A stretch of 36,690 bases of DNA from positions 13,029 through 49,718 of the forward strand of contig JADGCO010000023.1 in NCBI GenBank assembly GCA_015228935.1. The letters run 5' to 3'. This document shows positions 18,220 through 36,373 of the stretch, piece after piece. Made by a program: the position numbers and the translations under genes. Below the pieces are notes generated by a model, which was given only the letters and a program-made list of their open reading frames with translations, had not been told where the DNA came from and ran no database searches. Position 1 is the stretch's first letter. Every line of letters starts with the position of its first letter. Origin of the DNA: Magnetococcales bacterium. GTDB taxonomy: Bacteria; Pseudomonadota; Magnetococcia; Magnetococcales; DC0425bin3.

Positions 18220-18893
18220 GCCAGGGATCCTCCATGCAGTTCCGGTGTATCCAATTGGTGTCGTTCCAGGTTTCTCATGATGACCCGCAGGCGGTTGTCG
18301 GCGGCTGTGTACATTTCCGGTGCCTCTTCATGGGCGGCGTAATACAACAAGGCGAGTTGAACGATGGCCTCGTGAAACTCTTCGGGAAGGCCTGGTATAT
18401 CATTGTTGTTCGTCATGCGGCTGGCGCGTCGGTAGCAGACACCACGCACGGTATAGATGGCATCCGGAACCGGACCCAATTTGATCAGCCTATCTGGACT
18501 CAACGTCAACAGAGAGGGTGGTCCGACGACCGAGATTCCCGAGCCGTACCGTCGCCGCCATTCCCGGTAATCGGCATAGGGCAGATATCCTTCTCCGGCA
18601 GGTCCGATCGATTTCCGGTAAAAACTCAGGGAATCCTGCCGCAAACGCCCCAGGTATTCCAGATCCAGGGAGGTCAATGTGTAAGAACCAATCCCGGCAA
18701 CGGTATCGAAGGAAAACTCCTGCCACATCCAATGCCAGTTGGGCCGTGAATTCTGGATTTCCACCCAGGCATCGTTGACCCACTGGATGATTTTTTCGTA
18801 AACGCCAGATTGACCGGTAACGGCGGGGGGTCCGTTGCCGGACACCCCCGCTTCCCGGCGGACTTTCTGGCACATTTCCAGAAAAGTCGCCAT
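18216..18893 (-). CDS. Phage head-tail adaptor protein (P22 gp4-like)
   Basis: A 225-residue helical protein. The opening MATFLEMCQKVRREAGVSG and the following KIIQWVNDAWVEIQNSRPNW are typical of podovirus adaptor proteins, which form the ring under the portal. Other family-like parts are YRKSIGPAGEGYLPYADYRE and the C-terminal FHEAIVQLALLYYAAHEEAP helix pair. It starts 3 nt after the stop of the 151-residue gene, with GAGGAG upstream, and ends with an ATGA overlap. Its presence implies a podovirus-type ancestor even though the portal gene it would bind is missing. Confidence 0.75.
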   Translation of the reverse strand: MATFLEMCQKVRREAGVSGNGPPAVTGQSGVYEKIIQWVNDAWVEIQNSRPNWHWMWQEFSFDTVAGIGSYTLTSLDLEYLGRLRQDSLSFYRKSIGPAGEGYLPYADYREWRRRYGSGISVVGPPSLLTLSPDRLIKLGPVPDAIYTVRGVCYRRASRMTNNNDIPGLPEEFHEAIVQLALLYYAAHEEAPEMYTAADNRLRVIMRNLERHQLDTPELHGGSLA

Positions 18894-18896
18894 GGG

Positions 18897-19352
18897 TCAC
18901 TCCTCGAACGTGGTCGCTACCGGGGCGAACGAGAATGGGTAGGAGAGTGTTTCCCTGGGGTGAAACTCGCCATTTTCATCCTGCTCGAAATGGGTGGTGC
19001 GGGCATTCTGCAACGCCTCGACAAACTTGCGTGGCACCTGCACCGGCTTGCCCCGGGGAATGAGCATCAACGACCCGTTGACGGCCACCGGCACGGGACG
19101 ATCCCCGCCCTTGCCATCGCTGCGTTGCAGATGAATCCGCATGGCATCTCCTTCCACGTTGTTTTCCAGATCATTTTTTTCTTCGCTTTGCTCTTCCTTC
19201 ACGTCGATCTCCTCAAAACCTGCTTGACGAATCCGCTCACGCATGGTCTCTGCTCCCAGATTTCTGGGAAGATTGATCCCCAACAAATCCCTGGCAAATT
19301 CCTGCATTTGCGACCGACTGGCCTCGGCCAGCACCACTTTGATCTTACCCAT
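18897..19352 (-). CDS. Phage structural-module protein of unknown function
   Basis: A 151-residue protein starting MGKIKVVLAEASRSQMQEFA. The N-terminal helical half is acidic in the middle (EEIDVKEEQSEEKNDLENN); the C-terminal half (MRIHLQRSDGKGGDRPVPVA and VNGSLMLIPRGKPVQVPRKF) looks like a small beta domain shared by phage proteins placed just before the adaptor. GAGGAGAG lies 10 nt before the ATG. The next gene on the minus strand, the adaptor, begins 3 nt after its stop. No enzyme motif. Confidence 0.65.
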   Translation of the reverse strand: MGKIKVVLAEASRSQMQEFARDLLGINLPRNLGAETMRERIRQAGFEEIDVKEEQSEEKNDLENNVEGDAMRIHLQRSDGKGGDRPVPVAVNGSLMLIPRGKPVQVPRKFVEALQNARTTHFEQDENGEFHPRETLSYPFSFAPVATTFEE

Positions 19353-19471
19353 GGCAACACTCTCCTCAACAAGACAGATGCCGGGGATATCCCGACATCG
19401 GAAAAACTTTCGGTATTAACATCAGAATGCGTTCTTCCCTGAACCTGGATGCCAGCCGGCGGTGCCAGGAA

Positions 19472-19514
19472 TGGTCAGACTGTGGTCAGACTGCGATCAG
19501 ACTGTGGTCAGACC
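19472..19514. repeat. Four tandem 11-bp repeats
   Basis: The unit tggtcagactg occurs four times head to tail from 19472: perfect, perfect, cgatcagactg, and tggtcagacct. It lies immediately 3' of the stop of the 87-residue phage gene, in a 165-bp gap. One helical turn per unit suggests a protein binding array or slippage. Confidence 0.85.
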
Positions 19515-19517
19515 TGG

Positions 19518-19781
19518 TTAATAACTGTACGCGCTCCGATCATCCCAGACCTTGTCAAATTCCGCGTTGCCATTGGCAAAGCGCGCCGAGACCGGATTGC
19601 CATCCGTATAACTGATCTTGCGAATCTGCCAGATGCCATCCGAGGTCAACCCGCCTGGCTGCGCCAAGCCGATATATTCCGGATTGTCGTTTACATCGTA
19701 GGATGTCAACCGGTCCAGATACTCTTCCGTGCCAATTGTTGTCTGGGGTGGTCGCGTGGATGTTCCTGTGGGTGTTTTCAT
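19518..19781 (-). CDS. Small conserved phage protein
   Basis: An 87-residue protein. The core EEYLDRLTSYDVNDNPEYIG, followed by LAQPGGLTSDGIWQIRKISY and later FDKVWDDRSAYSY, matches a small protein common in podovirus-like prophages near tail or neck genes; its role is not known to me. I chose the ATG at 19781 because GGAGA lies 8 nt upstream, whereas the earlier ATG at 19814 has no ribosome binding site. Four 11-bp repeats follow its stop. Confidence 0.65.
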   Translation of the reverse strand: MKTPTGTSTRPPQTTIGTEEYLDRLTSYDVNDNPEYIGLAQPGGLTSDGIWQIRKISYTDGNPVSARFANGNAEFDKVWDDRSAYSY

Positions 19782-19910
19782 GATGTGATTCTCCAAAGTT
19801 GTAATGGTTGCCATCAGGCATTGCTACCGGTTTTCAAAACACTCCTGACTTTGCCGGCACAACACGTCAAAACCAATCTGTCCATCCAACAATCCTATTG
19901 TGCCATCTGG

Positions 19911-20321
19911 TCAGGAAGAGGCCAGTTCCCAGGCAGGATGTCCGGCATAACGATGCAGGGATGTCAGGCTGGTTGGTCTGGTTCCCTGGCCATCCAGATC
20001 TGCAAGATACGTCAGCATCGATGCAGGCACGGACCGCTGGGAAACCGTGTGGCCATCTGCATCAGGAACAATCGCCTGCATGGCCAGGACCAGCCAATCC
20101 AGATCATGCCCGGCAATGGTTTCTTCCAGAGTTGCCAGTGGATCCGGGTCTTCCATGTCAATCAAGGCATGGGTAATGCGCCGTCCATTGACACTTCGGG
20201 TTCCGGGCATCACCCCGGATGGCCATTCACCCTGGAAACGATGAATGGTGTTTTGTACGGATTCTGCCAAAAGAGCAAAATTTGTTTCGGTCGGCATGTT
20301 GATCAACACGTCGTAGATCAT
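19911..20321 (-). CDS. Hypothetical phage protein
   Basis: A 136-residue protein starting MIYDVLINMPTETNFALLAE, with GGAGGAG before its ATG and an ATGA overlap with the gene upstream of it. It has no recognisable catalytic motif. Mixed alpha/beta character and its place between tail-appendage genes suggest a virion or assembly role, but I do not recognise a family. Confidence 0.6.
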   Translation of the reverse strand: MIYDVLINMPTETNFALLAESVQNTIHRFQGEWPSGVMPGTRSVNGRRITHALIDMEDPDPLATLEETIAGHDLDWLVLAMQAIVPDADGHTVSQRSVPASMLTYLADLDGQGTRPTSLTSLHRYAGHPAWELASS

Positions 20322-21748
20322 GGAAACTCCTCCTCGATTTCACCAACAGTTTGCGCTGCACTCAGGATCATGACATTGGCAATCACAACTGATTCCGCAA
20401 CCCCTGCCCCCAATGTGATATACGTATCACTGACAAAGGCACCATCATAAGTTGCCACGGAACTCCAGGACCATGATCCTGAATCGGAAATATTTTTTGC
20501 CCCGATTTGCATTTCATTCGTTGCCGCTTGCCAACGCACGGCGATGCGCCAGCGTTTGCCGCAGGTCGGCACTGCGGCCACGCTGGCCGTATTGGTTCCG
20601 TCCGTGGTTTTGAAGGCCTGGGCGGCAAAATCATAACAGGCCAGGGATGCAGCCGACCCGGACAGACTGACCAGGCCCACGCTTCCGGTGGTCACAAAAA
20701 CAGATGATTGCAGGAATGGCAGTTCCATCTCAAGGATCAAGGTTCCGGCAGAGTCGGAATAATTTCCGGCTGACGGCCATTTGCAAACCTCGCCAGCCCT
20801 GGTCAGAATGGAGCTGGTCGTGAAGATCGGCGTCGTTGAACCAACGCCAACCTCGACCTGCATATTGTCGCAAATCACTGTGGGTGTTTGTCCCTGGTTG
20901 GCCCAGTTCCATCTGGTGGATCCGCCGATAGCCGGATAGAACCCGTATTGGTAGTGCCCTGTGTATGATCCACCGTGGCGGATGTGCCACCAATCGCCAA
21001 CCAGGGACATGGTAAAGGTGGGCGTCCCAACTGGCGGGTTCACGGCTGTCAGTGAATACGTCCCGTTGTCAATGGCCAGATCCGGTTGGGCAGTATCAAT
21101 ATATGTTGATGCAACATGTTGACAAAATCCAAAATAGTTGGTCGCCGTCACGTCCTTTTTGACGAAAAACGATGTGACAACTTTCCCCTGCAGGGTGTAG
21201 TATTCTGTTTGTCGTATTCCAAACCATGCAGTTTGCGTGACTGCCACAGCACTGTTTGCCACACCATCGATGCCGGTAGCGGTTTGAGATATTGATACAT
21301 TGCTACCAGACCACATGTATCCGGAATAATTCCTTGAATAGTAGGTATAATTTGTCCTGGACGGTTCAATCAGCAACCCGAATCCGTCCTGATCATACCA
21401 GGTGACACCATGGTGTATGGCTGTCGTCACACCGGCAGCCGACCACACGCCACCTGCATAGGTTCCCCCCCATACCCGGTGAACATGGGATCCGACCTCA
21501 ACCCAGATATGGCTGGCCTGTTTGACGGTGGCGGAAGAGGCGCGAGTAAAAGTCCCGGTGCCACTTCCCACGCGCAGGTTGACCGGATCAACTGAATTCA
21601 TGGCAAAAGAAACAAGATTTGGAGTGGTTGATCCTCCTGTGGATATTAAAAATGGTGAGTTCCAGGCAACTCCCGGAGCCACTGTAAAACGTCCATCGCA
21701 GGAGACCCATTTAAAACGGCCACCTTCATGATCATAGAATTTTATCAT
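20318..21748 (-). CDS. Phage virion protein with LamG-like C-terminus
   Basis: A 476-residue beta-rich protein. Residues 55-100 include VNLRVGSGTGTFTRASSATV, a pattern common in phage head- or tail-spike proteins. The middle (about 115-310) has GFGLLIEPSRTNYTYYSRNY and a galactose-binding-like region. The C-terminal part (about 320-460), with GTLILEMELPF and GKRWRIAVRWQAATNEMQIG, looks like a concanavalin/LamG sandwich. It is probably a receptor-binding or decoration protein. The start at 21748 has GGAGG 9 nt upstream; an earlier ATG at 21793 is less likely. It lies after a terminator, so it needs its own promoter in 21752-21920. Confidence 0.7.
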   Translation of the reverse strand: MIKFYDHEGGRFKWVSCDGRFTVAPGVAWNSPFLISTGGSTTPNLVSFAMNSVDPVNLRVGSGTGTFTRASSATVKQASHIWVEVGSHVHRVWGGTYAGGVWSAAGVTTAIHHGVTWYDQDGFGLLIEPSRTNYTYYSRNYSGYMWSGSNVSISQTATGIDGVANSAVAVTQTAWFGIRQTEYYTLQGKVVTSFFVKKDVTATNYFGFCQHVASTYIDTAQPDLAIDNGTYSLTAVNPPVGTPTFTMSLVGDWWHIRHGGSYTGHYQYGFYPAIGGSTRWNWANQGQTPTVICDNMQVEVGVGSTTPIFTTSSILTRAGEVCKWPSAGNYSDSAGTLILEMELPFLQSSVFVTTGSVGLVSLSGSAASLACYDFAAQAFKTTDGTNTASVAAVPTCGKRWRIAVRWQAATNEMQIGAKNISDSGSWSWSSVATYDGAFVSDTYITLGAGVAESVVIANVMILSAAQTVGEIEEEFP

Positions 21749-21920
21749 CAGATATTCCTCCACAGGTTTTTCAGCCGCCAGATCATAAAACATTGATGAT
21801 CCGTTTCGTGTCCAAACCAGACAGCAAACATCGCCTCTGCCAGAACCCTGGCTTTCTCCAGGATCACCACCAGAATCACCAGAAGTGGTTCACGTACTCC
21901 TGGTTTGGAATTGGCCTTGC

Positions 21921-21951
21921 GAAAAAAAAGGGCCGGTCACAACCCGGCCCT
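21921..21951 (-). terminator. Terminator after the terminase operon
   Basis: On the minus strand a perfect 8-bp GC-rich stem (agggccgg with ccggccct, plus-strand 21929-21951) is followed by a run of eight T. It lies 50 nt after the 69-residue gene and separates the packaging genes from the tail-appendage genes. Confidence 0.88.
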
Positions 21952-22001
21952 CATGTCATTCATGCCCGCCCGGCACTCCAGATACACACAGTCACCCCGA
22001 A

Positions 22002-22211
22002 TCAGACATGATAGTCCGGTTCGGAGGTGGCGATGATGGGTCGGCGAGGTCGAGCCAGATTCAAAAGAGTGGTCAAGGTTTGAATTCTTCCCCGCAACCT
22101 TTCCGTATCTTCCATGGGACAGGAAACGGCAATATCATCCTGACAATGCCGCAACTCCTCTTTGGCCCATTGACTGACTGTTTGCCAGGTTTCACTGCCT
22201 GGATCGATCAT
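22002..22211 (-). CDS. Small hypothetical phage protein
   Basis: A 69-residue helical protein starting MIDPGSETWQTVSQWAKEEL, with AGGAGA 6 nt before the ATG. It carries RLRGRIQTLTTLLNLARPRR and a polar tail. Small proteins of this helical pattern follow terminase genes in several prophages, but its function is unknown to me. A start at 22280 is possible but lacks a ribosome binding site. Confidence 0.6.
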   Translation of the reverse strand: MIDPGSETWQTVSQWAKEELRHCQDDIAVSCPMEDTERLRGRIQTLTTLLNLARPRRPIIATSEPDYHV

Positions 22212-22289
22212 GGTGTTCTCCTGGTATGGGTATGACTGTTCAAAACTTGCACGGTTGGATATGACCGGGTGATCTTGCACCCGGCAAAA

Positions 22290-23757
22290 TCAATATCCAG
22301 CCACAGTGTCGGCTGGCATGACCGAGGCCACCATGCGCCGGGAATGGTTTTGTATTTTGGCCAGCTTGAGACCACTCAACACCAGGTAGCGCGTGGCATC
22401 CAGCAGATGGTCATGCTCCTTGACGATACGGCCCTGCTCATCCCGCCGGTAGAGGCGATACTCCGATAACCAGTTTTGCATGGTTTTGAAAATGCGCAGG
22501 CGCTGGCTGGAGAGGCGTTCCCAAACCGCATGAATGCCCGCCTCCACGGCATTGTCCGCCGGTTCCAGATGCAACCCCAGATCCCGATAGGCTTGCAGCA
22601 GGGATTCTCCATCCTTCTGGCTGCGCCCGCGTGCGGCAGGATCGATCACACCCGGAATCCAATCCCCCCGGGCACGCACGGCAGCGGCATGCACCGACGG
22701 TTCAGCCTGACCTCGATAATGCTCGGAGTAGAGATAGACCACATCGGCCTCCCGGTCCCAGGCCCCCCAAACCGCCGCAGTCCGTTGCCAACCCACATCC
22801 AGGGCATAAACTTTGGGCCACCATTGGGGAATTTCCATGGGATCCACGACGATTTCATCCTCCGGAACCGGATAGATGGCCCCACTGCCCAGGGAAGGAA
22901 CTCCCTTGGAGCGGGCCGCCCTTTGATGCGGCGGAATGGAAGCGAGCAGCTCCTGTTTGTCTTTTTCGGACAGGTGGGGTGCATCGTTCCAATCCGCCAT
23001 GATGACGAATGGTTTCATGTTTCCGGCTTCCTTCCATACGATTTCATGTTTCCGGCAACCGCCCATGGGGCAGGAAATGTCGCACCACCTCCGACATGCC
23101 TGACAGGGGCGTAAAGGTACAGATCATCAGACCATTGGTCGTCATGGTGCGGATCAGGCATTCGGCATAGATCGACAGGGGAGGTTCCTCGTCCAGCCAG
23201 ACCACATCCTGCTCGGTCCCCTGAAATGATTTCCGTTTCTGATCATAGCTTTTCAGGACCAGACGACTTTCACCCCCCTGGCGATGGTGGACAGTGATGG
23301 TTTCCACGGCATCCGGAACACTGCCGGAACGATTTTTGATATCGGCGATGCAGGTGGCTGGAATCAGGCCGGTCCCGACATCGCTGGGTGGTCCAAGCAG
23401 TTTCATTTGAATGATATCCCGGACCGTCTGGGTGGTATCCCCGGCGGCCCAGGCCCGGATCGGACCGGTAAAGCGTCGTCCCGGCCACCATTCCGGATAG
23501 AGACCCGTCAAATGCAACGTGACTTCATAACCGCCCACTCCTTCTGTCTTGCCGATACGGTTGGCTGCCAGCATCAACCGTTCCCGATTGGTTTTTCCTC
23601 CGGAAAAAAAAGCCATGTGTTTTGGATACTTGTCCCGTGCCAAGGGGCCGGAATCGGGATAAAAACTCTCCAACCGGCGTGTGCGACGGCGACGCTCTTT
23701 TTCCTTAAGGATCAGGGTCACCAGATGTTTCTTTGATAAACCGCTCGATATGGTCAT
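22290..23757 (-). pseudogene. Terminase large subunit, broken by a +1 frameshift
   Basis: Packaging ATPase and nuclease in two frames. The first part (23757-23044, 237 residues) has a Walker A-like AANRIGKTE at residue 64 and a Walker B DVVWLDEEPP at 185, then stops at TGA (23046-23044) after HGRLPET. The second part continues one base over, reading EIVWKEAGNMKPFVIMADWN and on through GAIYPVP, YALDVGWQRTAAVWG and GVIDPAA (nuclease acids) to 22290. Dropping the T at 23046 would give one protein of 488 residues, a normal size. This may be a real mutation, a sequencing error, or a frameshift at the stop. A 15-bp direct repeat (23013-23027 and 23042-23056) spans the site. The start overlaps terS by 53 nt. 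Confidence 0.8.
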
Positions 23758-24064
23758 CCAACTCCTCGTCTGTCATCTCCTGCAAGCGTTTCATGATTGA
23801 ATCCTCATTGTCGGCCCCGGCCTCCATCTGCAAATGGCGACCAATGAGTTCGAGCGCCTTGTTGGCCCCGGAAACATCCATCTTGAATTCTCCTGTTGGA
23901 TTGCCTGACCGATCCTTGACCGGCTCTTCCTGGAGGCACCTTTCCACGACGGTCTGGAGTTTATCCAGCCACCATTGCCGGTCGATCCGGCTTTTGCGCG
24001 ACGTGCGTTTCTTGCGCACACCTGGCGTTGACTTTGTTGTATCATCCTGCATGGTTGAGCCCAT
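23705..24064 (-). CDS. Terminase small subunit
   Basis: A DNA-recognition subunit of about 119 residues for packaging. The Lys/Arg-rich N-terminus (GVRKKRTSRKSR) is followed by RQWWLDKLQTVVERCLQEEP and the family-like FKMDVSGANKALELIGRHLQ; in such subunits the GANKALELIG helix is typical. The C-terminus is acidic. It lies just before and overlaps terL, the usual order. The start is uncertain: 24064 (MGSTMQDD) is my choice, with 24115 and 24052 as alternatives. Confidence 0.75.
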   Translation of the reverse strand: MGSTMQDDTTKSTPGVRKKRTSRKSRIDRQWWLDKLQTVVERCLQEEPVKDRSGNPTGEFKMDVSGANKALELIGRHLQMEAGADNEDSIMKRLQEMTDEELDDHIERFIKETSGDPDP

Positions 24065-24203
24065 TTTCATCTTCCCTGTGCATCCACAATGATTCGTGCA
24101 TCGACCCTGATTCATCCGGGAACAAAACCATGGTTGTCAGCGCCGGATCATCCCTGCGGGCATGATCCGGCGTTGGTGCCGTTCTGGAATCCATCCTGCC
24201 CGG

Positions 24204-24458
24204 CTAGCCACCACCTGTCAGTTTGTTCCGAAAAAACTCCCCCAGGACAGTGACGAGCATGGCGACCCCGCCGCCGCTCAGCATGCCAAACACTGCTGAA
24301 CGACTTTCCACTTCCCGCAGGCGACGATCAAGACCGCCAATCCAATCGGTGATTTCTCCCTGCCGGTTCTGGATGGCCGTCAGGGTACCCTTGATCTCGC
24401 CGAGTTGCATGGCAACCTCGTTCAAGACTCCCTGGTTTTCACAACAATGCTCTCCCAT
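24204..24458 (-). CDS. Coiled-coil/TM lysis-associated phage protein
   Basis: An 84-residue protein. The N-terminal half is a coiled coil (EVAMQLGEIKGTLTAIQNRQ, then RRLREVESRSAV); the C-terminal part is one membrane helix (about 57-73, FGMLSGGGVAMLVTVLGEFF). This resembles XhlA-like or haemolysin-type holin partners. It lies 4 nt after the holin-like gene in a lysis cluster. A two-cysteine start (MGEHCCENQ) is unusual. Confidence 0.65.
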   Translation of the reverse strand: MGEHCCENQGVLNEVAMQLGEIKGTLTAIQNRQGEITDWIGGLDRRLREVESRSAVFGMLSGGGVAMLVTVLGEFFRNKLTGGG

Positions 24459-24462
24459 GCGC

Positions 24463-24624
24463 TCACCCCTTTGTCAAAATGCCGACCAGACCAGCCAGAC
24501 CCGTTCCGGCAGCGATGATCTCTGTCACCAGCTCCGGGCGCATGTCGATTCCCAGTGCTGTCGCCAGCATGACCATGCCACGCCAGGTGGATGGCTCCCG
24601 CATCCTGTCAACAATGTAGTTCAT
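24463..24624 (-). CDS. Holin-like small membrane protein
   Basis: A 53-residue protein starting MNYIVDRMREPSTWRGMVML. The EPSTWRG motif, followed by a membrane helix, a short MRPELVTEIIAAG link and a second hydrophobic stretch (GLAGLVGILT), is common in small phage membrane proteins next to lysozymes and probably marks a holin-type role. Its ATG overlaps the TGA of the preceding 46-residue gene (ATGA at 24621-24624). Confidence 0.7.
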   Translation of the reverse strand: MNYIVDRMREPSTWRGMVMLATALGIDMRPELVTEIIAAGTGLAGLVGILTKG

Positions 24625-24761
24625 GTCAGCACCACCCAGCCAATAAGGTGCCCCACACCAGCCACGACCAGAGGCACCATGCTCATCACCACCAACAACC
24701 CGGTTATCAACAGAAGATAACCTCCCCAGCGGATCACTCCCTTGATCCAATCATTCATCAT
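24621..24761 (-). CDS. 46-residue membrane protein in the lysis cassette
   Basis: A very short gene, read directly from the minus strand: MMNDWIKGVIRWGGYLLLIT, then a long hydrophobic stretch (GLLVVMSMVPLVVAGVGHLI), ending GWVVLT. It has AAGGAG 4 nt before the ATG, overlaps the 3' end of the lysozyme gene by 11 nt and the holin-like gene by ATGA. One or two membrane helices suggest a holin, antiholin or similar lysis component. Confidence 0.6.
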   Translation of the reverse strand: MMNDWIKGVIRWGGYLLLITGLLVVMSMVPLVVAGVGHLIGWVVLT

Positions 24762-25179
24762 GAAACTCCTTCCCTGTTTCCATCATGCGCGCCAGATGGC
24801 GCGCCCGTTCTCCAACCTGTTTGGCCCACCGTGAATCAAGCATCTCCCGGGAAGCCAGCGCAAAATCTTGATTGTTGATGGCGGTCATGAGCCGCTGAAA
24901 CATGCGAAACCGGCTGATCCCCAGGTTGAAACACATGTCCATCAGGGCACAACGCCGGACATCGTTCAAATCGTTGAACACCGGCAGAAGGCGTTGCAGC
25001 TCCCCTTCCACCCGATCCAAATCGTTGTGCAACAACAGCATGGCTTCGGTTTCGGTGATGCCCACATCTTCCAGATTGCGTCCCACCCCGATGGTGACCC
25101 GACCCGCCGGGCAGAGATAGGGACGCAGGGCAATGCCTTCGTGTCTGATCATTTGTCTGGTCAACGCTTCACGATCCAT
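24751..25179 (-). CDS. Phage lysozyme (GH24 endolysin)
   Basis: A 142-residue muramidase that cuts the glycan strands of peptidoglycan. The active-site pattern Glu-8x-Cys-5x-Thr is present: Glu14 in RHEGIALRPYLC, Cys23 and Thr29 in RVTIGVGRNL. Cys in place of the T4 Asp is normal for many phage endolysins. The later NLGISRFRMFQRLMTAINNQ segment fits T4-lysozyme-like enzymes. There is no signal or SAR helix, so it would depend on a holin. AGGATG lies just before the ATG. The gene is preceded, after only 13 nt, by the T tract of a stacked-terminator block (repeat copy 1), which leaves no room for a promoter between them. Confidence 0.9.
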   Translation of the reverse strand: MDREALTRQMIRHEGIALRPYLCPAGRVTIGVGRNLEDVGITETEAMLLLHNDLDRVEGELQRLLPVFNDLNDVRRCALMDMCFNLGISRFRMFQRLMTAINNQDFALASREMLDSRWAKQVGERARHLARMMETGKEFHDE

Positions 25180-25192
25180 TTGTTCATCCTCC

Positions 25193-25379
25193 CCAAAAAA
25201 AAAGCCCGCACCGGTTGCCCGGAGCAGGCCTGAATCAACCCGCCCAAAGGCGGGTCACCAAAAACACAAAAACCCTTCGCAAAAAGTGCCGAAGGGTTCG
25301 CTCATCTGGACGAAGAGCAAACTCGCCCAATGTGGGTGCAAGTTCTACCCTGTTTTGAGCCCCCCCTCAAGAAAAAAAA
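25193..25379 (-). repeat. 187-bp stacked-hairpin repeat, copy 1, in front of the lysozyme gene
   Basis: Nearly identical to 26132-26317 (three C/T differences and a one-base change in an A run). On the minus strand it holds, in order: a small ttgag/ctcaa hairpin (25355-25370), a 9-bp stem aacccttcg/cgaagggtt (25271-25298) followed by TTTGTGTTTTT, a 7-bp stem acccgcc/ggcgggt (25238-25255), and a long GC-rich hairpin (25204-25229) followed by a run of nine T. At least two are convincing intrinsic terminators. Confidence 0.9.
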
Positions 25380-26131: not shown

Positions 26132-26317
26132 CCAAAAAAAAGCCCGCACCGGTTGCCCGGAGCAGGCCTGAATCAACCCGCCCAAAGGCGGGTCACCAAA
26201 AACACAAAAACCCTTCGCAAAAAGTGCCGAAGGGTTCGCTTATCTGGACGAAGAGCAAATTCGCCCAATGTGGGTGCAAGTTTTACCCTGTTTTGAGCCC
26301 CCCCTCAAGAAAAAAAA
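26132..26317 (-). repeat. 187-bp stacked-hairpin repeat, copy 2
   Basis: The direct-repeat partner of 25193-25379, offset by 939 bp. All hairpins are kept; the three substitutions are C in copy 1 and T in copy 2 on the plus strand. Its final T tract ends 23 nt before the GTG of the broken small gene, so both copies sit directly 5' of a minus-strand gene. Confidence 0.9.
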
Positions 26318-26350: not shown

Positions 26351-28069
26351 TTATTTTTGGCAGCGACTGGCAATTTTTTTGAGGGCCGCATCAACCCGAC
26401 CGGCTTCTTTCTGAAGTTGATCGGCCAGGAGTTGGGCACCTTCGAGGGAATTACGGCGTGTCAAAGTATCCAATTCGGTTGCCAGATGGCTGAACCGCAA
26501 GGCACCAAGCTGACGACTGGGACTTTTCAAGGGGTGCGTGGCCCAATGCACTGCCTGGGTATCCCCCTCGGCCATGGCCTTGGCGATGGCCTGCACACGT
26601 TCCGGCAGGGTTTCCAAAAACAGATGAACCACTTCGCCCACCACATCGGACCCCAATTCACTGCATAAAAGCTGAAATGTGCGCGGATCGATGATTTGGT
26701 CAGCATCGGCATCGAGAGATACATTATTTTGGGGAATCGGGTCCCTGGTTTGCGGGTCGGCATTCCAACCCGGCAACCAGCGATCCAGGAGTTGCAATAA
26801 ATCCTGCCGACAAACCGGTTTGGCCAGATAGTCATCCATGCCGGCCTTCTGGCATTGTTCGGCATCGCCCAGCAGCGCAAAGGCCGTTACCGCGATGATC
26901 GGGGTGTGTTTTCCCCGGGCTGCTTCACGCTGGCGCAACTCCTGTGAGGCGGTAAAACCATCCATGACCGGCATCTGACAATCCATGAGAACGAGATCGA
27001 AATCGGTCACGGCCAGATGGTCCAAGGCCTCCTGGCCATTTTTGGCCACCTCGGGAAAAATGCCCAGGCCCTGGAGCAACGCCTCCAGCATTCTCCGGTT
27101 CAGGGGATCATCCTCGACCAGAAGAAGACGAACCTTGCCGGAAACCAACTGAGGAACTTGCCGGGAGTTGCCGGAATCTGCGAGGGAATCCTGGGTGATT
27201 CCCGGCATTTCACCACTCTGCCAGGAAAAAGCAGGGTCCTCAGCCGATGAGCCGGTCTGGGGGGGAGCAGGAATATTGGGCTGCCGATTGACATACAAGG
27301 CTTCGCGTTCACTCTGCAAACGCTGCAATTGTATCAGATAGCCGCGCACCCAACCCAGAAACCAGAGAGTCATGCCAGTCAACAGAATCCACGCCCCAAG
27401 ATGAAACAAAATGACATTCTTGGTTTGCTCCTGCACACCCTCCAAAATTGTCCCGGCCGGGAAAACCAGACTGATCCCACCACGCAAATCACCGATTTTA
27501 TAGCCTTGTTGGGCATGACATTTCAGGCACTCTGCGTGGGTGTATAACGGGGCCATGAAACGGTAAAAATCCTTGCCATCCTCCCGCACAAGTTCCAGAT
27601 ACTCTGCATCTCCTTGCTTGAAACCCTGCAATGCCCTGGATTCCCACTCCAGGGCCACGTTCTCGGGTCGGATGGGATTCAGGCTCGTGATGTGCAGGAC
27701 CATGGACCCTTTTTCCAGGGCAATTTCCGCCAACTGCCGAGTCATATAGGCCGGATTGATCAGGGTCAGGTGTTTTCCGGAAAAGGCCACCTCATCGCGG
27801 TTCGCCGTATCCAGATAGGGATTGGGCGGCGTCTTTTCGGTCACCGGCACATAAACGCCACCATGCCGGGCGTTCCACATGCGGGCCGTCTCCAAAATCC
27901 GGAAAGAATACCAGCCCCTTTCCCGGGCCAGGGCCAGTGCCTGTCGGTTCAAGCTGATGGCGTTCCAAAGGATGGAAAGGCCCGCCACCAGGGACCAGAT
28001 CAGCACCGGCCACACCCAAAATTTCCTGGCAAACAGCATCTGGTTCAATTTGGATGGCGCATGCCCCAT
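26351..28069 (-). CDS. Membrane haem-sensor protein with REC and HPT domains, no kinase domain
   Basis: A 572-residue protein. Two membrane helices (about 17-37 and 219-242) frame a periplasmic Tll0287-like (DUF3365) sensor with a c-type haem motif CLKCH at 181-185. After a linker comes a receiver domain (313-430: VEDDPLNRRML, Asp363 in LMDCQMPVMDG, Lys417 in AKPV) and an HPT domain (about 470-560, phosphoacceptor His512 in ATHPLKSPSRQLGA). There is no HisKA or HATPase domain, so it cannot phosphorylate itself; it would take or pass phosphate in a relay. It lies directly after a chemoreceptor with the same sensor type. I chose the ATG at 28069; a TTG at 28126 would start inside a hairpin. Confidence 0.82.
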   Translation of the reverse strand: MGHAPSKLNQMLFARKFWVWPVLIWSLVAGLSILWNAISLNRQALALARERGWYSFRILETARMWNARHGGVYVPVTEKTPPNPYLDTANRDEVAFSGKHLTLINPAYMTRQLAEIALEKGSMVLHITSLNPIRPENVALEWESRALQGFKQGDAEYLELVREDGKDFYRFMAPLYTHAECLKCHAQQGYKIGDLRGGISLVFPAGTILEGVQEQTKNVILFHLGAWILLTGMTLWFLGWVRGYLIQLQRLQSEREALYVNRQPNIPAPPQTGSSAEDPAFSWQSGEMPGITQDSLADSGNSRQVPQLVSGKVRLLLVEDDPLNRRMLEALLQGLGIFPEVAKNGQEALDHLAVTDFDLVLMDCQMPVMDGFTASQELRQREAARGKHTPIIAVTAFALLGDAEQCQKAGMDDYLAKPVCRQDLLQLLDRWLPGWNADPQTRDPIPQNNVSLDADADQIIDPRTFQLLCSELGSDVVGEVVHLFLETLPERVQAIAKAMAEGDTQAVHWATHPLKSPSRQLGALRFSHLATELDTLTRRNSLEGAQLLADQLQKEAGRVDAALKKIASRCQK

Positions 28070-28115
28070 CTTTTCGATCTCTTTGCCGTCAAAGACAAAA
28101 TTATCGTCGGCCAAA

Positions 28116-28150
28116 ACCCGGATCAAGGGTCAGACGCCCCTGATCCGGGT
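28116..28150. terminator. Hairpin between the chemoreceptor and REC-HPT genes
   Basis: A perfect 10-bp stem (acccggatca with tgatccgggt). On the minus strand only TTTT follows, so termination would be partial; it may set the relative levels of the two proteins. Confidence 0.5.
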
Positions 28151-28159
28151 CACTCCTGC

Positions 28160-30034
28160 TCAAAAATTCTCGAATTCGTCATCACCGCCTTTGTCAGGTC
28201 CCATATCCAGGTGGACCGGGGATTTTGCTGGTTGCACCCCACCTTTGGATTTGGCTTTGCCCTTGGTATTCGCACCGGTCCGGGACGGCGGCGGCAAAAG
28301 GGCACGGGGCTTGGCCGTGGTCTCGGCAGCCGGTCGGGATGAACTCCGGGTGGTTGTGGTCTTGGCGGTGGCTGCCCTGCCAGAACCCTGCTGACCAAAG
28401 TGGAAAAAGCTGATGGCCTCCTGCAAGGACTCCGAAAGCGAAGAAAGTTCATGGGCCGTCGAGGCAATTTCCGACGAAGCACTCGCATTTTGCTGGATCA
28501 CCTGATCCAATTGTTGGATGGCACTGTTGATCTGCTCGGCTCCCTGGGATTGCTCCGTGGAAGCGGTCGTGATCTCCTGGACCAGCTCCGCAGTCCTCTT
28601 GATGTCAGGAACCAGTTTTTCCAAAAGAAGACCCGCTTTTTCAGCCACACTGACACTCGAAGCCGAGAGCTGTCCAATTTCCCCGGCGGCGGCCTGGCTG
28701 CGTTCTGCCAGTTTGCGCACCTCGGCTGCCACGACGGCAAACCCTTTGCCATGCTCACCCGCACGCGCCGCCTCGATGGCCGCATTCAAGGCCAGCAAAT
28801 TGGTTTGCCGGGCAATCTCCTCGATGATGGAGATTTTTTCCGCGATTTGTTTCATGGCCTTCACGGACTCCTGAACGGCCCTGCCCCCTTCTTCGGCATC
28901 CATGGCGGCTTTTTTGGATATTTTTTCCGTCTGTTGGGAATTTTCGGTATTTTGTTGAATGTTGGAGGTCATCTCTTCCATGGCCGCCGAGGTCTCCTCG
29001 ATGGATGCCGCCTGGCGGGTTGCCCCTTCGGACACCTCCTGGGAAGTGGAGTTTACACTGTGACTGCTGCTCAGGACTTCCGTGGTGGTATTTTGCACCT
29101 GACCAACGATATCGCGCAGGCGGGCCACCATGTTTCCTGTTGCCGTTACGGTCCGGCCAATGTCATCCGTGCTGGTTGACTTGGGAACCTCCACCGACAA
29201 ATCCCCCTGGGAAACCCGACTCAACAGGCTTTCGATGATCCGGACCGGATCGATGGCCAACCGTTTGATCAGGGTAAACACCACGGCACTGATCAGCAGC
29301 ATGGAAACCAGGGCGAGTCCCACAATCTGAGTCAACGCATCCCGAACCGAACTTTGCATGGGAGCCAGTTCGGCGATGATTTCAAAGGCACCGCGTTGTT
29401 CGCCAACGCGCCAGCCTTCCATCTTGATGCCCAGCGGGTCATTCCCCTTGCCTTCCGGATAATCGGCTTCGACACCATGACACAACATGCACTCTTTCTT
29501 CATGGTGACCGGTCGCATGTACCTGAGGGCATTGATCTCCGGATCTTCCATCCAAAGCTCTTGCAGATCCCCCTTGGCCATTTTTTCGATCATGGTCCGT
29601 TCAATGGGTTTGGCTTCGTTGTCCGGGTTGCGTGCGCCAATGCGGGTGACCCGGAATTGATGGTGGGCTGTTTTGGCTTTCTCCTGGCCGATGGTCCACC
29701 CGGCCACGATGGGAATGGTTTGATAAAAACGGGTTTTACGGGCGGCCTGGATGATATCCTTCTGGTCCCGGGCACCACTTTTCCGGATTTCATCCTGGGC
29801 CTCTTTCAGGAGACTGGGGTCATAAACCTTGTCGGCACCCATTTTGGCAATATAGTTGCGGGCACTCTCCGCCTGGACCGTGATGCTGCGGGCCTGCTGA
29901 ATCAGTGCTTCCACGGCATCTTCTTCGATTCGGTTCTTGACCAGTACAATCACCAGGACAAAGCCAAGCGTAATGATCAATAAAGCCGATGCAATTATTT
30001 TAGTTCCGAAATTCATGTTCTTGATAAAGTCCAT
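28160..30034 (-). CDS. Methyl-accepting chemotaxis protein with Tll0287-like haem sensor
   Basis: A 624-residue chemoreceptor that signals to CheA/CheW. A membrane helix (about 12-32) is followed by a periplasmic Tll0287/DUF3365-like domain with a c-type haem motif CMLCH at 182-186 in the segment [18 protein letters not shown] second membrane helix (about 236-257) leads to a HAMP domain (about 258-312), then the long cytoplasmic coiled coil with the hairpin tip [20 protein letters not shown] near 407 and [19 protein letters not shown]. The tail is Ser/Thr- and Lys-rich and ends DDEFENF, without the usual NWETF-type tether. GGAGGAG lies before the ATG. The haem motif suggests sensing of redox state, oxygen or nitric oxide. 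It lies between lpd and the REC-HPT gene. Confidence 0.93.
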
Positions 30035-30109: not shown

Positions 30110-31528
30110 CTATTGATTCCGTCGCGGTACGTAGTAGTGGGCACTCTGCCCAAAGAAGACCTCGGCGGCTTCCATCATGGTTTCCGAGAGGGTGGGATGG
30201 GGATGGATCACTTCGGCCAGATCCTGGACCACGGCCCCCATTTCAATGGCCAACACCCCTTCGGCAATCAATTCACCGGCACCCCGTCCGACGATGCCAA
30301 CCCCCAGAATGCGTTCATTTTCCGGATTGACGATCAATTTGGTGAACCCGTCTGGTTGTTCCAGGGTTTGGGCGCGACCTGACGCCCCCCAGGGAAAGCG
30401 AACGGCCTTGAACGGAATTTTTTGTTCCACGGCGGCTGTTTCGGTCAGTCCCGCCCAGGCCAGCTCGGGATCCGTGTAGCAGACGGCGGGAATGGCATTG
30501 GGTTCGAAGCAGGTTTTCTTGCCGGCGATGGCTTCGACAGCCACCCGCGCCTCATGGGAAGCCTTGTGAGCCAGCATAGGCCCACCCACCAGATCGCCAA
30601 TGGCAAATATCTTCGGATCACGAGTCCGGCGCTGGCCATCGACCTGAACCAGGCCTCGCTTGACTTCCACGCTGGTTTTGTCCAATCCCAAATCTTCGGA
30701 ATTGGGTCGGCGGCCAATGGCCATCAGAACGCGATGATACTTTTCTTCGCGTTTATTGCCCTGGGCGTCTTCCAGCGTCGTGTGAACCATGCCATCCACG
30801 TCGGCCAGGGCCGTGACCCGGGTTTGCAACAAAATTTCGTGACACTGGGGCTGGAACCGTTTGACCACGATCCGGACCAGGTCCCGGTCGGCTCCGGGCA
30901 GCAAGCCGGGGGTCATTTCCACCACACTGACCCGGCTTCCCAATGCCGCATAGACACTGCCCAGTTCCAGGCCGATGACGCCACCCCCAATGATCAGCAG
31001 GGTTGGCGGAATTTCATCCACGGCCAGGGCGGCGGTGGAGTCCATCACCCGGGGCGAGTCGATCTGCAAACCCGGAATCCAGGCCGGACGTGACCCTGTG
31101 GCCAGAATGCAATGGTCAAAGGGAATCTGCACCCGATCCCCGTTCACGCATAGCACGACAAGGTTATCCGGTGCCGCAAACCGGGCATGGCCCTGGATGA
31201 AATTGATCTCCCGGCGTCGGCACAGATTACCCAAAGCTCCGGTCAGGCGGGTCACCACGCTGTTTTTCCAGTCGCGCAGACGATGCAGATCAATTTCCGG
31301 CGGGGCAAAGCGCACCCCCATGACTTCGGCATGGCGCGCTTCCCAAAGCACCTGCGTCACATGCAGCAACGCCTTGCTGGGAATACACCCCCGGTAGAGG
31401 CAAACCCCTCCGGGATTGGGTTCCGTATCGATCAGGGTCGTGGCAAACCCCATATCCGCAGCCCGAAAGGCCGCCGCGTAACCTCCTGGTCCGCCACCGA
31501 CCACCACCACCTTATCCGGATTTTTCAT
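30110..31528 (-). CDS. lpdA: Dihydrolipoamide dehydrogenase (E3)
   Basis: A 472-residue FAD-dependent disulfide oxidoreductase that re-oxidises dihydrolipoamide of 2-oxoacid dehydrogenase or glycine cleavage complexes. The FAD-binding GGGPGGYAAA is at residue 11. The redox-active pair Cys43/Cys48 lies in GGVCLYRGCIPSK. The NAD-binding LLIIGGGVIGLELGSVYAAL is near 180. AIGDLVGGPMLAHKA and the active-site HPHPTLSETMMEAAE complete the family pattern. GAGGA lies 7 nt before the ATG. No E1 or E2 gene is nearby, so its partner complex is elsewhere. It is 31 nt after the HD-GYP gene and 75 nt before the chemoreceptor gene. Confidence 0.96.
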   Translation of the reverse strand: MKNPDKVVVVGGGPGGYAAAFRAADMGFATTLIDTEPNPGGVCLYRGCIPSKALLHVTQVLWEARHAEVMGVRFAPPEIDLHRLRDWKNSVVTRLTGALGNLCRRREINFIQGHARFAAPDNLVVLCVNGDRVQIPFDHCILATGSRPAWIPGLQIDSPRVMDSTAALAVDEIPPTLLIIGGGVIGLELGSVYAALGSRVSVVEMTPGLLPGADRDLVRIVVKRFQPQCHEILLQTRVTALADVDGMVHTTLEDAQGNKREEKYHRVLMAIGRRPNSEDLGLDKTSVEVKRGLVQVDGQRRTRDPKIFAIGDLVGGPMLAHKASHEARVAVEAIAGKKTCFEPNAIPAVCYTDPELAWAGLTETAAVEQKIPFKAVRFPWGASGRAQTLEQPDGFTKLIVNPENERILGVGIVGRGAGELIAEGVLAIEMGAVVQDLAEVIHPHPTLSETMMEAAEVFFGQSAHYYVPRRNQ

Positions 31529-31559: not shown

Positions 31560-33116
31560 TTATTCTTTCAACGCATCCTGGATTTCCAGAAACTCATCGA
31601 GGTGGTCAAGGAACAAATCGACAAGCCTGGGATCGAAATGGCGTCCGCGTTCCTGATGGAACAATTCAATGATTTTTTCCAGTGGCCAGGCTTTTTTGTA
31701 GCATCGCTCATGAAACAGCGCATCAAAGACATCGATCACGCTGGTAATACGGGCAAAAACATGGATGTCGTCGCCCTTCAACCCATCGGGATATCCCGTA
31801 CCATCCCATTTTTCATGGTGTTGACAGGCGATGATGGCACCGGTCCTCAGGATGGGCCGGTCGGAGCTTTTCAGTATCTGCCGACCTATCCGGGTATGAC
31901 TCTGCATCACCTGCCACTCTGTCTGATCCAGTTTGCCCGGTTTGTTCAGGATATGATCGGGAATGCCGATTTTTCCCAGATCGTGCATGGGCGATGACAA
32001 CCAGAGAAGCTCGACATCCTCTTCACTCAATCCCAGCAACATGCCCAGCAGCCTGGAGCTTTCCGCAACCCGGCGCACATGGTTGCCCGCCTCGTTGGAA
32101 CGAACTTCGATCACCTCGCCCAGGGTAAAGGTGACATCCTTTTGCGTATTGACAATTTCCCTGTTCAAACCAAGATTTTCGAACGCGAAGGCAATATTTG
32201 CGGAAAAAGTGCGCAACAAATCCCGATCCAGGTCTTCCAGAGGACGATTTGCCTGAATATAAATCAAATTTTCAAGATTGCCGCGACTGACATACCGGGT
32301 CAGAAAACCAAAACGGCTGAAGATGCCTTCGCGGGGATCTTTGATGTTCTCCACCTGGCCAACCAGCTCACCGGGCAATATGTCACCGATGGCTTTTCCA
32401 ACATGCGGTTCAAAGGAACCACAAGCAGCATAGACGACATGACCGACATATTCCCGTATCGCGAAGAAACCGGCCACCGCATGGTCTGAATTTTCATCCA
32501 GGCTCAACAGGGATGTCGCTTGCCGTAATATGCTTCTGGCCAGCTTGCCCAGGGAACGGGCTTCGAAGAGATCGCCTGTCCCATTGACGATACTGGCCAA
32601 ACCCCGGCGGGTATTGTCGATGGTTCGCAAGTCACGATAAGAACGCAAGGCCGCCGTGATCGAGGTGATCAGGCGTTGGGTGGTCAACCGGACCTTGTCC
32701 TTGTAGTCATTGATATCGTACTCTTGGATCACTTTTTGCTCGGGAGCCTGACCGGGTTGGCCGGTCCGCAAAATGATGCGCACAAAACGATTTGACAAAA
32801 CGTCCCGAATGTAGCGCACGGCGCTGAGACCGGCCTCATCTGTCTCCATCACCACATCCATGAGGATGACTGCCGTATCGGGGTGTTGTTGCATCAATCG
32901 CTGGGCTTCCACCGCCGAATAGCCGCTGATAAGCTCCGCTTTTCTGTTATCGAAGGTGAAATCGCGCAGCACGAGACGGGTCAGGGAGTGGATCTCCTCG
33001 TCATCGTCCACGATCAGGATTTTCCATGGCTGCCGGGTGGGGTCGGCACTGACCGGCACTGGTTGGTCTGCCCCGCCGCGCAGCTCATCTGCAAAAAACA
33101 AATCGGAGGTCAGCAT
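31560..33116 (-). CDS. Response regulator with HD-GYP c-di-GMP phosphodiesterase
   Basis: A 518-residue protein of REC-DUF3369-HD-GYP type. The receiver (about 32-150) has IVDDDEE at 36 and Asp87 in LMDVVMETDEAG. DUF3369 (about 175-315), a GAF-like module, follows. The HD-GYP domain (about 325-510) has HV(R)R at 346, the HD pair at 378-379 in PMHDLGKIGIPDHIL, and HHEKWDGTGYPDGLKG at 433, so all catalytic residues are present. It should degrade c-di-GMP, favouring motility. The cognate kinase is not in the window. AAGGA lies somewhat far (about 14 nt) from the ATG. Confidence 0.93.
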   Translation of the reverse strand: MLTSDLFFADELRGGADQPVPVSADPTRQPWKILIVDDDEEIHSLTRLVLRDFTFDNRKAELISGYSAVEAQRLMQQHPDTAVILMDVVMETDEAGLSAVRYIRDVLSNRFVRIILRTGQPGQAPEQKVIQEYDINDYKDKVRLTTQRLITSITAALRSYRDLRTIDNTRRGLASIVNGTGDLFEARSLGKLARSILRQATSLLSLDENSDHAVAGFFAIREYVGHVVYAACGSFEPHVGKAIGDILPGELVGQVENIKDPREGIFSRFGFLTRYVSRGNLENLIYIQANRPLEDLDRDLLRTFSANIAFAFENLGLNREIVNTQKDVTFTLGEVIEVRSNEAGNHVRRVAESSRLLGMLLGLSEEDVELLWLSSPMHDLGKIGIPDHILNKPGKLDQTEWQVMQSHTRIGRQILKSSDRPILRTGAIIACQHHEKWDGTGYPDGLKGDDIHVFARITSVIDVFDALFHERCYKKAWPLEKIIELFHQERGRHFDPRLVDLFLDHLDEFLEIQDALKE

Positions 33117-34223: not shown

Positions 34224-34263
34224 ACAATGAAATTTTTTACATCCCGCGAACAGGCGGTTGAAT
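34201..34263 (+). repeat. 21-bp direct repeat across a gene junction
   Basis: cccgtgaacaggcggtcgaat (34201) recurs as cccgcgaacaggcggttgaat (34243), offset 42 bp and so in the same frame. Between them a short frame begins at 34227 (MKFFTSREQAVEWAKN). The second copy contains the start codon of the STT3-like gene. Confidence 0.8.
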
Positions 34264-36373
34264 GGGCAAAAAATATACTTTGCACGAGCGGCATGTCTAT
34301 TACCTGTTATGTCTGATCCTGCTGTGGGGCTGGGCAATCCGCTCTGCGGATGTGCCCAACTGGTTGTCAAACCCGGAGCGTATGCTGTTCCAGGGAAAAC
34401 CCCTTCTGGCCAGCGTCGATGGCTATTATTTTCTGGACCTGTCCCGGAATACAACTTTTGCACCTGAACCAGCCCATCCCCGGCAGGAAGATCTGTCGTC
34501 TTCTCTCCCTGCCCATGTGGACCCGGCCCCGCCCCGTTTGCCACTCCCGGCACACATGATTCGTTCCCTGGTCCGTGTCTGGGACATGGATCCTTTGTGG
34601 ATCGCGGCCTGGAGCGGACCTGTCCTGGCTCCCCTGCTCGCCATTCCCCTGTTTTTCCTGGGAAGATACTGGGGTGGACGCAGCAGTGGTCTGGCGGCAG
34701 CCTTGTTGGGTGTCACGGCTCCCCTGTTCGTGCAACGAACTGCCTTTGGTTATTTCGATACGGACATGCTCATTCCAACCCTGTTTCTGGTCATGAGCCT
34801 GGGATTTTTGCATTTTGCGCGTGGTCAACCGGGCCGCATGTTCCCCCCGCTGCTCCTGGCTTTGGGCGGATATGGAGTGTTGCTGTGGTGGTGGGATCGG
34901 GCACCGGCACAAATACTGGGGATGCAGCTCTCCCTGATCATGATGAGTTGGCTGGTCAGGCGATTTTCCCGGAACCGGGCTGCTCCACCCCTGCCGGCTT
35001 ACCTCCTGCCAGGATACACCCTGCTGACGTTGGGCACATTCTACCTGGCCCGGGGTGAACTTCCCTCCCTGGATCTGGTGGCCACCCTGAAGAACGGGTT
35101 GGAATTTTTTCTGGGTGCGGAAACTTCCTCTCTTCCCCCCACGGCCAGAATCATTGAAGAGTTTCATGCCCTTCCCTGGCAACAAACCGCCCTGGCAGCA
35201 ACCGGACACCCCTTGACGGTTGTTTTGGGTTGCATCGGTCTCCTCCTGCTGACAGGGCGCGGCAAATGGGAGATGGTATTATTGCTTCCCGTGTCCATTC
35301 TGGGGGTATGGGGCCTGCTTGGAGCCATGCGCCTGCTCATTTTTACCGGTCCCCTGCTGGCACTCGGCATCGGTCATCTGACCGGCCTGGCCTGGAAACA
35401 GGCCCACCGCTGGCATCCCGGGGCAGGCCGGATCCTTGTCTTGTTGGGAGTATTGGCTGCACTTTGGCCTGCGCTGCGCAACAGTCTGCCCCACCGAACT
35501 ACCCTGGATTTTTCGCCGCCAACCGTGGCCGGCATGGCTGAGTTCAGCCGGATTTTGCCCCCCCAGGCCTGGATTTGGTCTCTCTGGGACGCCGGCCATC
35601 CATTGCGATATTGGTCGCAACGCGCCGTCGTTTTTGACGGGCATGTCGATGTCCCGGAAGCCGGGGAGAGATTGGTGTACAATACCCTCCCTTTTGCCAC
35701 ACCGGATGCCGTTTTTTCGGCCCGTTTCATGCTGGATTATACGGCCCGGGGTCTGCCCGGCATGCGTCAGCGCCAACAACGCGCTCATGGAGACTGGGAC
35801 CAGGCCATCCACCAATTGCGGGAAGCACCACCCCCGAATGCAAGAACCCCGTCTGCGCTGACCACAGTCCCCCCCCCGGTCTACGTGTTTCTGTTTCGTG
35901 ACATGCTCGACAAAAGCCCCTGGTGGTACCCCTTTGCCACCTGGAGCTTTACCCAACGCCGAGGCATCAAGCCTTTCATTGTGCGGTTGACCGGCATGAC
36001 CCGTCTGGGTGACATGGTTTATTTTGCCTCGGCAACCCCGGCCCGGGCATTACCGAAAGGCCCTTGGCAAGCCGATCTCAACAAGGGGGTGTTTCTGGCC
36101 GGTGATCAAACATCCCCCCTGATGCGGCTGGGAGTCTTCGATGCATCCCAAAACCCCCAACGGGTCGAGTTTTCCAATCACGACGGTTTGACCCTGCTCC
36201 TGGATTCCACCACTGCGACAGGCTATCTCCTGGACAGAAACCTCGCCGACTCGCTGTTCATTCGCCTGTGGTTTTTCCAGGATCCACCTGCCGGAACCTT
36301 CCGTCCCGTGCGGATTTCCGGACTGGATCATCAGCTCTGGGAGGTCGTTTCATCATCTGCAAACAATCCATGA
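34262..36373 (+). CDS. STT3/PglB-like oligosaccharyltransferase
   Basis: A 703-residue membrane protein. The N-terminal 400 residues hold about a dozen membrane helices; the C-terminal 300 are soluble. STT3 motifs are recognisable: D53 in VDGYYFL (first acidic motif), DTD at 166-168 in FGYFDTDMLIPTL, a TIxE-like IIEE near 297, the conserved Arg in AMRLLIFTGP near 357, and a WWDYG-like SLWDAGHPLRYW at 440. Such enzymes move lipid-linked glycans to Asn side chains of proteins in the periplasm. The WWDYG motif is altered to LWDAG, and the first acidic motif lacks the usual flanking residues, so substrate or activity may differ. The start ATG lies inside a direct repeat. The lipid-linked glycan genes are not in this window. 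Confidence 0.75.
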   Translation: MGKKYTLHERHVYYLLCLILLWGWAIRSADVPNWLSNPERMLFQGKPLLASVDGYYFLDLSRNTTFAPEPAHPRQEDLSSSLPAHVDPAPPRLPLPAHMIRSLVRVWDMDPLWIAAWSGPVLAPLLAIPLFFLGRYWGGRSSGLAAALLGVTAPLFVQRTAFGYFDTDMLIPTLFLVMSLGFLHFARGQPGRMFPPLLLALGGYGVLLWWWDRAPAQILGMQLSLIMMSWLVRRFSRNRAAPPLPAYLLPGYTLLTLGTFYLARGELPSLDLVATLKNGLEFFLGAETSSLPPTARIIEEFHALPWQQTALAATGHPLTVVLGCIGLLLLTGRGKWEMVLLLPVSILGVWGLLGAMRLLIFTGPLLALGIGHLTGLAWKQAHRWHPGAGRILVLLGVLAALWPALRNSLPHRTTLDFSPPTVAGMAEFSRILPPQAWIWSLWDAGHPLRYWSQRAVVFDGHVDVPEAGERLVYNTLPFATPDAVFSARFMLDYTARGLPGMRQRQQRAHGDWDQAIHQLREAPPPNARTPSALTTVPPPVYVFLFRDMLDKSPWWYPFATWSFTQRRGIKPFIVRLTGMTRLGDMVYFASATPARALPKGPWQADLNKGVFLAGDQTSPLMRLGVFDASQNPQRVEFSNHDGLTLLLDSTTATGYLLDRNLADSLFIRLWFFQDPPAGTFRPVRISGLDHQLWEVVSSSANNP

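Follow-up and report, generated by a model that had tools for sequence, protein, structure and literature searches.

A predicted haem-c sensor protein with receiver and HPT domains but no kinase, adjacent to a chemoreceptor in a genus of Magnetococcales

A gene in a Magnetococcales genome encodes a membrane sensor protein that ends in a receiver (REC) and an HPT domain and has no kinase domain of its own. Both ends of this protein share ancestry with full hybrid kinases, and the protein is retained under purifying selection. In the light of these comparisons, it appears to be a real, genus-level selected variant of a hybrid kinase, standing beside a widespread haem chemoreceptor. The gene lies in a stretch of 36,690 nucleotides, here called the window, from a genome of 4.7 Mb in 197 contigs. 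The features discussed are collected in Table 1.

Table 1. Features of the sensor genes and their neighbors in the window
Feature	Position	Strand	Details
REC-DUF3369-HD-GYP response regulator, first gene of the same-strand row	31560-33116	-	HDLGK and HHEKWDGTGYP intact; synteny
Dihydrolipoyl dehydrogenase (lpd), between the HD-GYP and receptor genes	30110-31528	-	TIGR01350 above cut-off; synteny in L123 and L124
Chemoreceptor: haem-c Cache sensor, weak HAMP, MCP signalling hairpin	28160-30034	-	Pfam
CMLCH haem-c attachment motif, chemoreceptor	29477-29491	-	
C-terminal DEFENF of the chemoreceptor	28163-28180	-	Fits x-[HFYW]-x-x-[HFYW]; kept in relatives across several families
Kinase-less sensor protein: TM1, haem-c Cache (Tll0287-like), TM2, linker, REC, HPT	26351-28069	-	572 aa from ATG 28069; orthologues L123:6417-8144(-) and L124:7766-9475(+)
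CLKCH haem-c attachment motif, kinase-less sensor	27515-27529	-	CxxCH kept in all aligned homologues
Second membrane helix, residues 219-245, kinase-less protein	27335-27415	-	Model helix 206-262; hydrophobic in alignment
Unconserved linker of ~55 aa, in place of the relatives' PAS/HisKA/HATPase	27134-27295	-	16-37% identity; 54-56 aa in three species
REC domain	26780-27133	-	Phosphoacceptor Asp363 at 26981-26983; Pfam and alignment
REC helix alpha-1 (docking face)	27068-27106	-	Genus-invariant; diverged from kinase-bearing relatives
HPT domain	26372-26701	-	Phospho-His512 at 26534-26536 within THPLKSPSRQLGA; Pfam and alignment

Domain content of the two sensor proteins

The frame at 26351-28126(-) matched the Pfam domains Tll0287-like (1.6e-18), Response_reg (3.4e-26), and Hpt (2.9e-9), each above the gathering score. 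No Pfam match to HisKA or HATPase was found in it up to E = 0.1, or in the orthologues from two congeners to E 0.001. The true start is probably ATG 28069 and not TTG 28126, since homology to both congeners begins there when relatives are aligned. Compared with the class of tripartite hybrid histidine kinases, the protein has the REC and HPT domains with their catalytic Asp and His and lacks HisKA and HATPase_c. In alignment, the REC acidic pair, Asp363, Thr395, and Lys417, and the HPT His512, are all retained in the kinase-less proteins. The neighboring chemoreceptor matched Tll0287-like (9e-25) and MCPsignal (1.3e-35), with a HAMP match of 18.5 bits against a cut-off of 25. PF11845 (sCache_heme/Tll0287-like) scored above gathering in both proteins. 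The CxxCH motif is present in both and kept in the congeners; it reads CLKCH in the kinase-less protein and CMLCH in the chemoreceptor, each flanked by two hydrophobic helices, and both sensors probably carry haem. A preliminary description of this DNA had proposed a Tll0287-like domain with CxxCH between two membrane helices in both genes, the second continuing into a receiver and HPT without HisKA or HATPase, and the Pfam matches and motif positions bear out both points.

An AlphaFold model of the kinase-less protein's sensor (ten sequences, pLDDT 84) consists of a long helix at residues 15-68, a strand-rich core in which a short helix bears the CxxCH, and another helix at 206-262. With this model, the best PDB match in Foldseek was Tll0287 itself (5b82, E 5.5e-4), with GSU0935 (3b42) third; a single-sequence search of the PDB with the same sensor gave no match. 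In plan, both window proteins resemble the sCache_heme (PF11845) sensors, which likewise carry CxxCH, lie extracytoplasmically between two membrane helices, and are fused to signalling modules (PMC12889525, preprint). The outputs given there are HK, MCP, cyclase, and c-di-GMP modules; HPT and phosphorelay are absent from the main text, so that the kinase-less protein differs in its output. The chemoreceptor resembles in plan GSU0582 and GSU0935 of Geobacter sulfurreducens, which have a haem-c periplasmic sensor, a HAMP, and an MCP hairpin (PMC8396549); the HAMP match of the window receptor is weak. The Geobacter study, as consulted, describes no REC-HPT partner for either, unlike the situation of the window receptor.

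Descent from hybrid kinases

The proteins of the two congeners, genomes G001 and G002, are kinase-less too, being 66-70% identical to the window protein and having the same three Pfam domains. A frameshift or an assembly error was ruled out as the cause of the missing kinase, given that three genomes share the architecture and all three genes are free of internal stops. The loss of a kinase domain by frameshift, named at the outset as what would overturn the preliminary description, was thus checked and is not the case.

In g7, a genus from another family of the same order, the same sensor (~48% identity) and the same REC-HPT (50-55%) form the two ends of full hybrid kinases. Between these ends lie two PAS domains with HisKA and HATPase (1106 aa) or HisKA and HATPase alone (779 aa), and the alignment with the kinase-less protein is collinear, the kinase module alone being absent. 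The g7 proteins are among the leading matches from outside the genus for both the sensor and the REC-HPT, and beyond g7 the REC-HPT identity falls to about 30%. The sensor tree unites the three kinase-less proteins (100/98) and nests them within a wider group of 14 rows (97/92). The other members of that group are hybrid kinases and a kinase truncated by a contig end (L127), and a hybrid kinase from the order's one-contig genome sits just outside. Because the g7 kinases share both ends and the kinase-less clade nests among kinases, the simplest history would be an in-frame excision of the kinase module (PAS/HisKA/HATPase) in the ancestor of the genus. ArcB, BarA, and EvgS, like the g7 orthologues, have a C-terminal REC and HPT as the kinase-less protein does, and HisKA and HATPase are theirs only. 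The g7 hybrid kinases and their selected kinase-less descendant make up a natural experiment that allows side-by-side comparison. They make it testable whether phosphate flow can be under the control of a sensor that neither autophosphorylates nor has a rigid signalling helix.

End-to-end matches to the kinase-less protein came only from the three congeners among 398 genomes of the phylum, with the best three candidates per genome scored. In a scan of 84,980 species, the most suggestive kinase-less homologue among the best 80 loci listed (L041) proved to be two adjacent genes. The first, L041:5528-7393 from a member of the Desulfobulbaceae, encodes a haem-Cache sensor with apparent PAS and GAF regions, judged by eye, and no visible kinase motif. 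It is followed directly by the gene for a hybrid kinase without a haem-Cache sensor, and the pair is maybe a split kinase. Another kinase-free output was seen within the order, where L138:6194-7930 encodes a haem-Cache sensor fused to a SpoIIE-type phosphatase. The window genome also encodes a stand-alone REC-HPT protein of 283 aa without other Pfam sensor domain (L148:7661-8512).

Selection, linker, and phosphate flow

The dN/dS values of the kinase-less genes were about 0.09-0.13 in the sensor, 0.08-0.14 in the REC, and 0.08-0.09 in the HPT where computable, and are approximate because the synonymous sites are almost saturated. A decaying remnant of a hybrid kinase that no longer has a function would agree with the loss of the catalytic module itself. 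That account is largely refuted and most improbable, as in three species, 64-70% identical, the frames stay open, the catalytic residues are kept, and dN/dS is near 0.1 in each domain while the linker between the membrane helix and the REC drifts. Judging from its composition, in which P, G, S, D, N, Q, E, and T make up 56-65% of residues, this linker is probably flexible.

The REC shows a different pattern. Residues 322-334 do not vary among the three species and belong to a block of 19 consecutive invariant positions (p = 0.029 in a run-length shuffle based on three sequences). The stretch 322-335 is only 36% like the g7 consensus, and the segment THPLKSPSRQLGA, which surrounds the HPT histidine, hardly differs between the kinase-less and g7 groups. 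In hybrid kinases, the counterpart of REC alpha-1 docks on the partner histidine domain (PMC9981736). Since alpha-1 is invariant in the genus and diverged from g7 beside a nearly unchanged HPT histidine segment, a new partner in trans is the simplest reading, and the pattern suggests that the REC was fitted to such a partner after the kinase was lost.

We give about an even chance to the reading that the protein is an in-frame-excised tripartite hybrid kinase of the ArcB/BarA type that now acts as a membrane-tethered REC-HPT relay element, with a kinase in trans and forward flow. The trans kinase would phosphorylate Asp363 of the REC, and the phosphate would pass to His512 of the HPT and on to a response regulator, the closest candidate being the HD-GYP regulator encoded in the row. 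A rigid helical relay from membrane to output is unlikely, and tethering likelier, given a linker that is not conserved and is probably flexible. The proposed mechanism would accordingly work by partner switching, with a rigid helix pushing the REC disfavoured: binding of NO to the haem, or a change between its oxidised and reduced forms, would alter which membrane partners the sensor joins. The ligand, haem loading, partner kinase, flow direction, and acceptor given for the kinase-less protein are what we infer. RcsD is a functional analogue, likened by function and not by homology, being a membrane protein with a periplasmic part whose HPT is fed by the REC of another protein (PMC7418988). 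Both would serve a relay started by the kinase of another protein. RcsD provides the HPT step and RcsC the REC (PMC7418988), whereas the kinase-less protein has both and appears to derive from a complete hybrid kinase.

The direction of flow through REC and HPT cannot be read from the sequence, and a forward relay, at roughly even chances, is preferred to a reverse drain, which we hold to be possible and rather doubtful. In the latter, phosphate would run from a phosphorylated response regulator to HPT, to REC, and off as free phosphate, so that the protein would act as a phosphatase under haem control and require no donor kinase. The protein keeps exactly the two domains required, with their catalytic residues, and in EvgS, hydrolysis of the REC phosphate outpaces its transfer to the HPT, something similar having been suggested for BarA and ArcB (PMC4494823). 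With the cis HPT as the sole domain docking on the REC, however, the switch and subsequent freeze of alpha-1 beside a nearly unchanged HPT segment would be unexpected, which is weak evidence against the drain. If phosphate flows forward, a kinase in trans is required, as the preliminary description had argued, for the protein has no kinase domain of its own. The same description had a haem signal altering flow through REC and HPT; the need for a trans kinase holds, and transmission of the signal down the protein is weakened by a P/G/S-rich, unconserved linker of ~55 aa.

HisKA-HATPase matches number 55, 33, and 45 in the three genomes of the genus, and potential trans donors therefore exist. 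None of these kinases stands out as the lost kinase surviving as a separate gene, the best being about 50% identical. The window genome also encodes a non-hybrid haem-Cache kinase on contig C52 (Tll0287-PAS-HisKA-HATPase, without REC or HPT) and a haem hybrid kinase on contig C1 that has a REC and no Pfam Hpt match. Their existence would allow the sensor part to pair with a sister haem kinase as a heterodimer, the REC-HPT serving as the relay arm of that kinase. We consider this very unlikely, as the C52 type was found in neither congener and the C1 type was not found in G001 (76% complete), which gave no other haem-Cache protein; G002 gave one C1-like frame of 1169 aa. A haem kinase as universal partner was rejected on the same distribution.

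Gene row, chemoreceptor, and signal

The row of HD-GYP regulator, lpd, MCP, and sensor-REC-HPT genes is common to the three species. The pairing of chemoreceptor and kinase-less protein was seen only in this genus, whereas the chemoreceptor itself occurs widely across the order. Close relatives of its sensor (44-68%) were found in many families, mostly in receptor-length frames; some genomes have it in a frame that is just 261-286 aa long. Short stand-alone frames of 264-317 aa with this sensor and its CxxCH were seen at L219, L220, and L222, in other families. The C terminus is kept across families of the order as [DE]-F-[ED]-x-[FY], and fits x-[HFYW]-x-x-[HFYW], the pattern of the CheR-tether pentapeptide. 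In the short flanks of the relatives outside the genus, neither lpd nor the kinase-less protein lay alongside. The chemoreceptor would read the same kind of signal as the kinase-less sensor and convey it to CheA, and it offers a concrete candidate gas or redox receptor in magnetotactic cocci.

Each genome of the genus has three or four CheA-type proteins, and these, with the adjacency of the two genes in three species, would suit a role on the chemotaxis side, in which CheA under the haem receptor phosphorylates the REC and the protein buffers or diverts CheA phosphate. This is unlikely in our estimate: the receptor is widespread and its relatives are not seen beside the kinase-less protein outside the genus, and the best matches of the REC are receivers of hybrid kinases.

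The HD-GYP regulator, the nearest candidate acceptor under the preferred forward relay, has a REC match that is weak but complete (DD/D/T/K intact), and its putative link to the kinase-less protein is by synteny only. No HD-GYP neighbor of this type was found at the g7 hybrid kinase loci examined. At one g7 locus, the kinase gene and the gene of a CZB-GGDEF diguanylate cyclase overlap, a hint that gives another pointer toward c-di-GMP. The broadest proposal is that a kinase-free haem-c (NO/redox) sensor, recruiting or draining phosphate through a tethered REC-HPT refitted after the excision, would, together with the chemoreceptor, couple taxis to c-di-GMP turnover through HD-GYP in magnetotactic cocci. 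We offer it tentatively, as an improbable whole. The taxis-phosphorelay link with HD-GYP output put forward in the preliminary description is a possible model; the gene order is kept in the three congeners, and the partner is unseen elsewhere in the order, within short flanks. Its suggested search for sensor-REC-HPT proteins beside chemoreceptors in other genomes gave the three congeners and none outside the genus, among 398 genomes of the phylum with three candidates scored in each.

A recent preprint assigns the DUF3365/Tll0287 domain, with its haem c, to the Cache domains and not to PAS (PMC12889525). That work describes tight NO binding (koff 6.3e-4 per s), and no stable complex with O2, for a signalling member from P. 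azotoformans; the stand-alone member that was tested carries an axial Cys and showed the behaviour of a redox protein. For the Geobacter haem chemoreceptors GSU0582 and GSU0935, binding of both NO and CO is reported, and their midpoint potentials are -156 and -251 mV (PMC8396549). No Cys outside CxxCH was found in the N-terminal/sensor region of either window protein in the three species. The window sensors thus resemble the NO-binding type, the P. azotoformans protein likewise having no other Cys for an axial ligand (PMC12889525, preprint). By analogy with these proteins, NO or redox is better supported than O2 as the signal of both predicted haem sensors. On the published ligand evidence for this sensor type (PMC12889525, PMC8396549), the redox or gas taxis envisaged earlier would be narrowed to NO or redox potential at the expense of O2. 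The window genome and G001 encode a cytochrome d1 domain like that of cd1 nitrite reductase (PF02239, E 4e-149), which was not found in the near-complete G002, so that NO is possibly made internally in some, not all, species of the genus. The MCR domain (PF18509) was found in the window genome, the two congeners, one family member, and the order's one-contig genome, and in 0 of 14 controls. MCR is the magnetochrome domain, known from magnetosome proteins.

Elsewhere in the window, an STT3-type oligosaccharyltransferase (PF02516) at 34262-36373 is divergent from the HD-GYP row and is preceded by an unassigned 276-aa protein conserved in the congeners. On the other side, prophage-like genes (tail fibre, amidase, terminase, and endolysin) occupy 14579-25179 on the minus strand. 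The terminase large subunit is split across the overlapping frames 23044-23757 and 22290-23066, which suggests that the set is decaying. The interval that separates the endolysin gene, which is of phage type, from the end of the gene for the REC-HPT protein contains a 184-bp direct repeat (25196-25379 and 26134-26317), its copies 98% identical and 938 bp apart.
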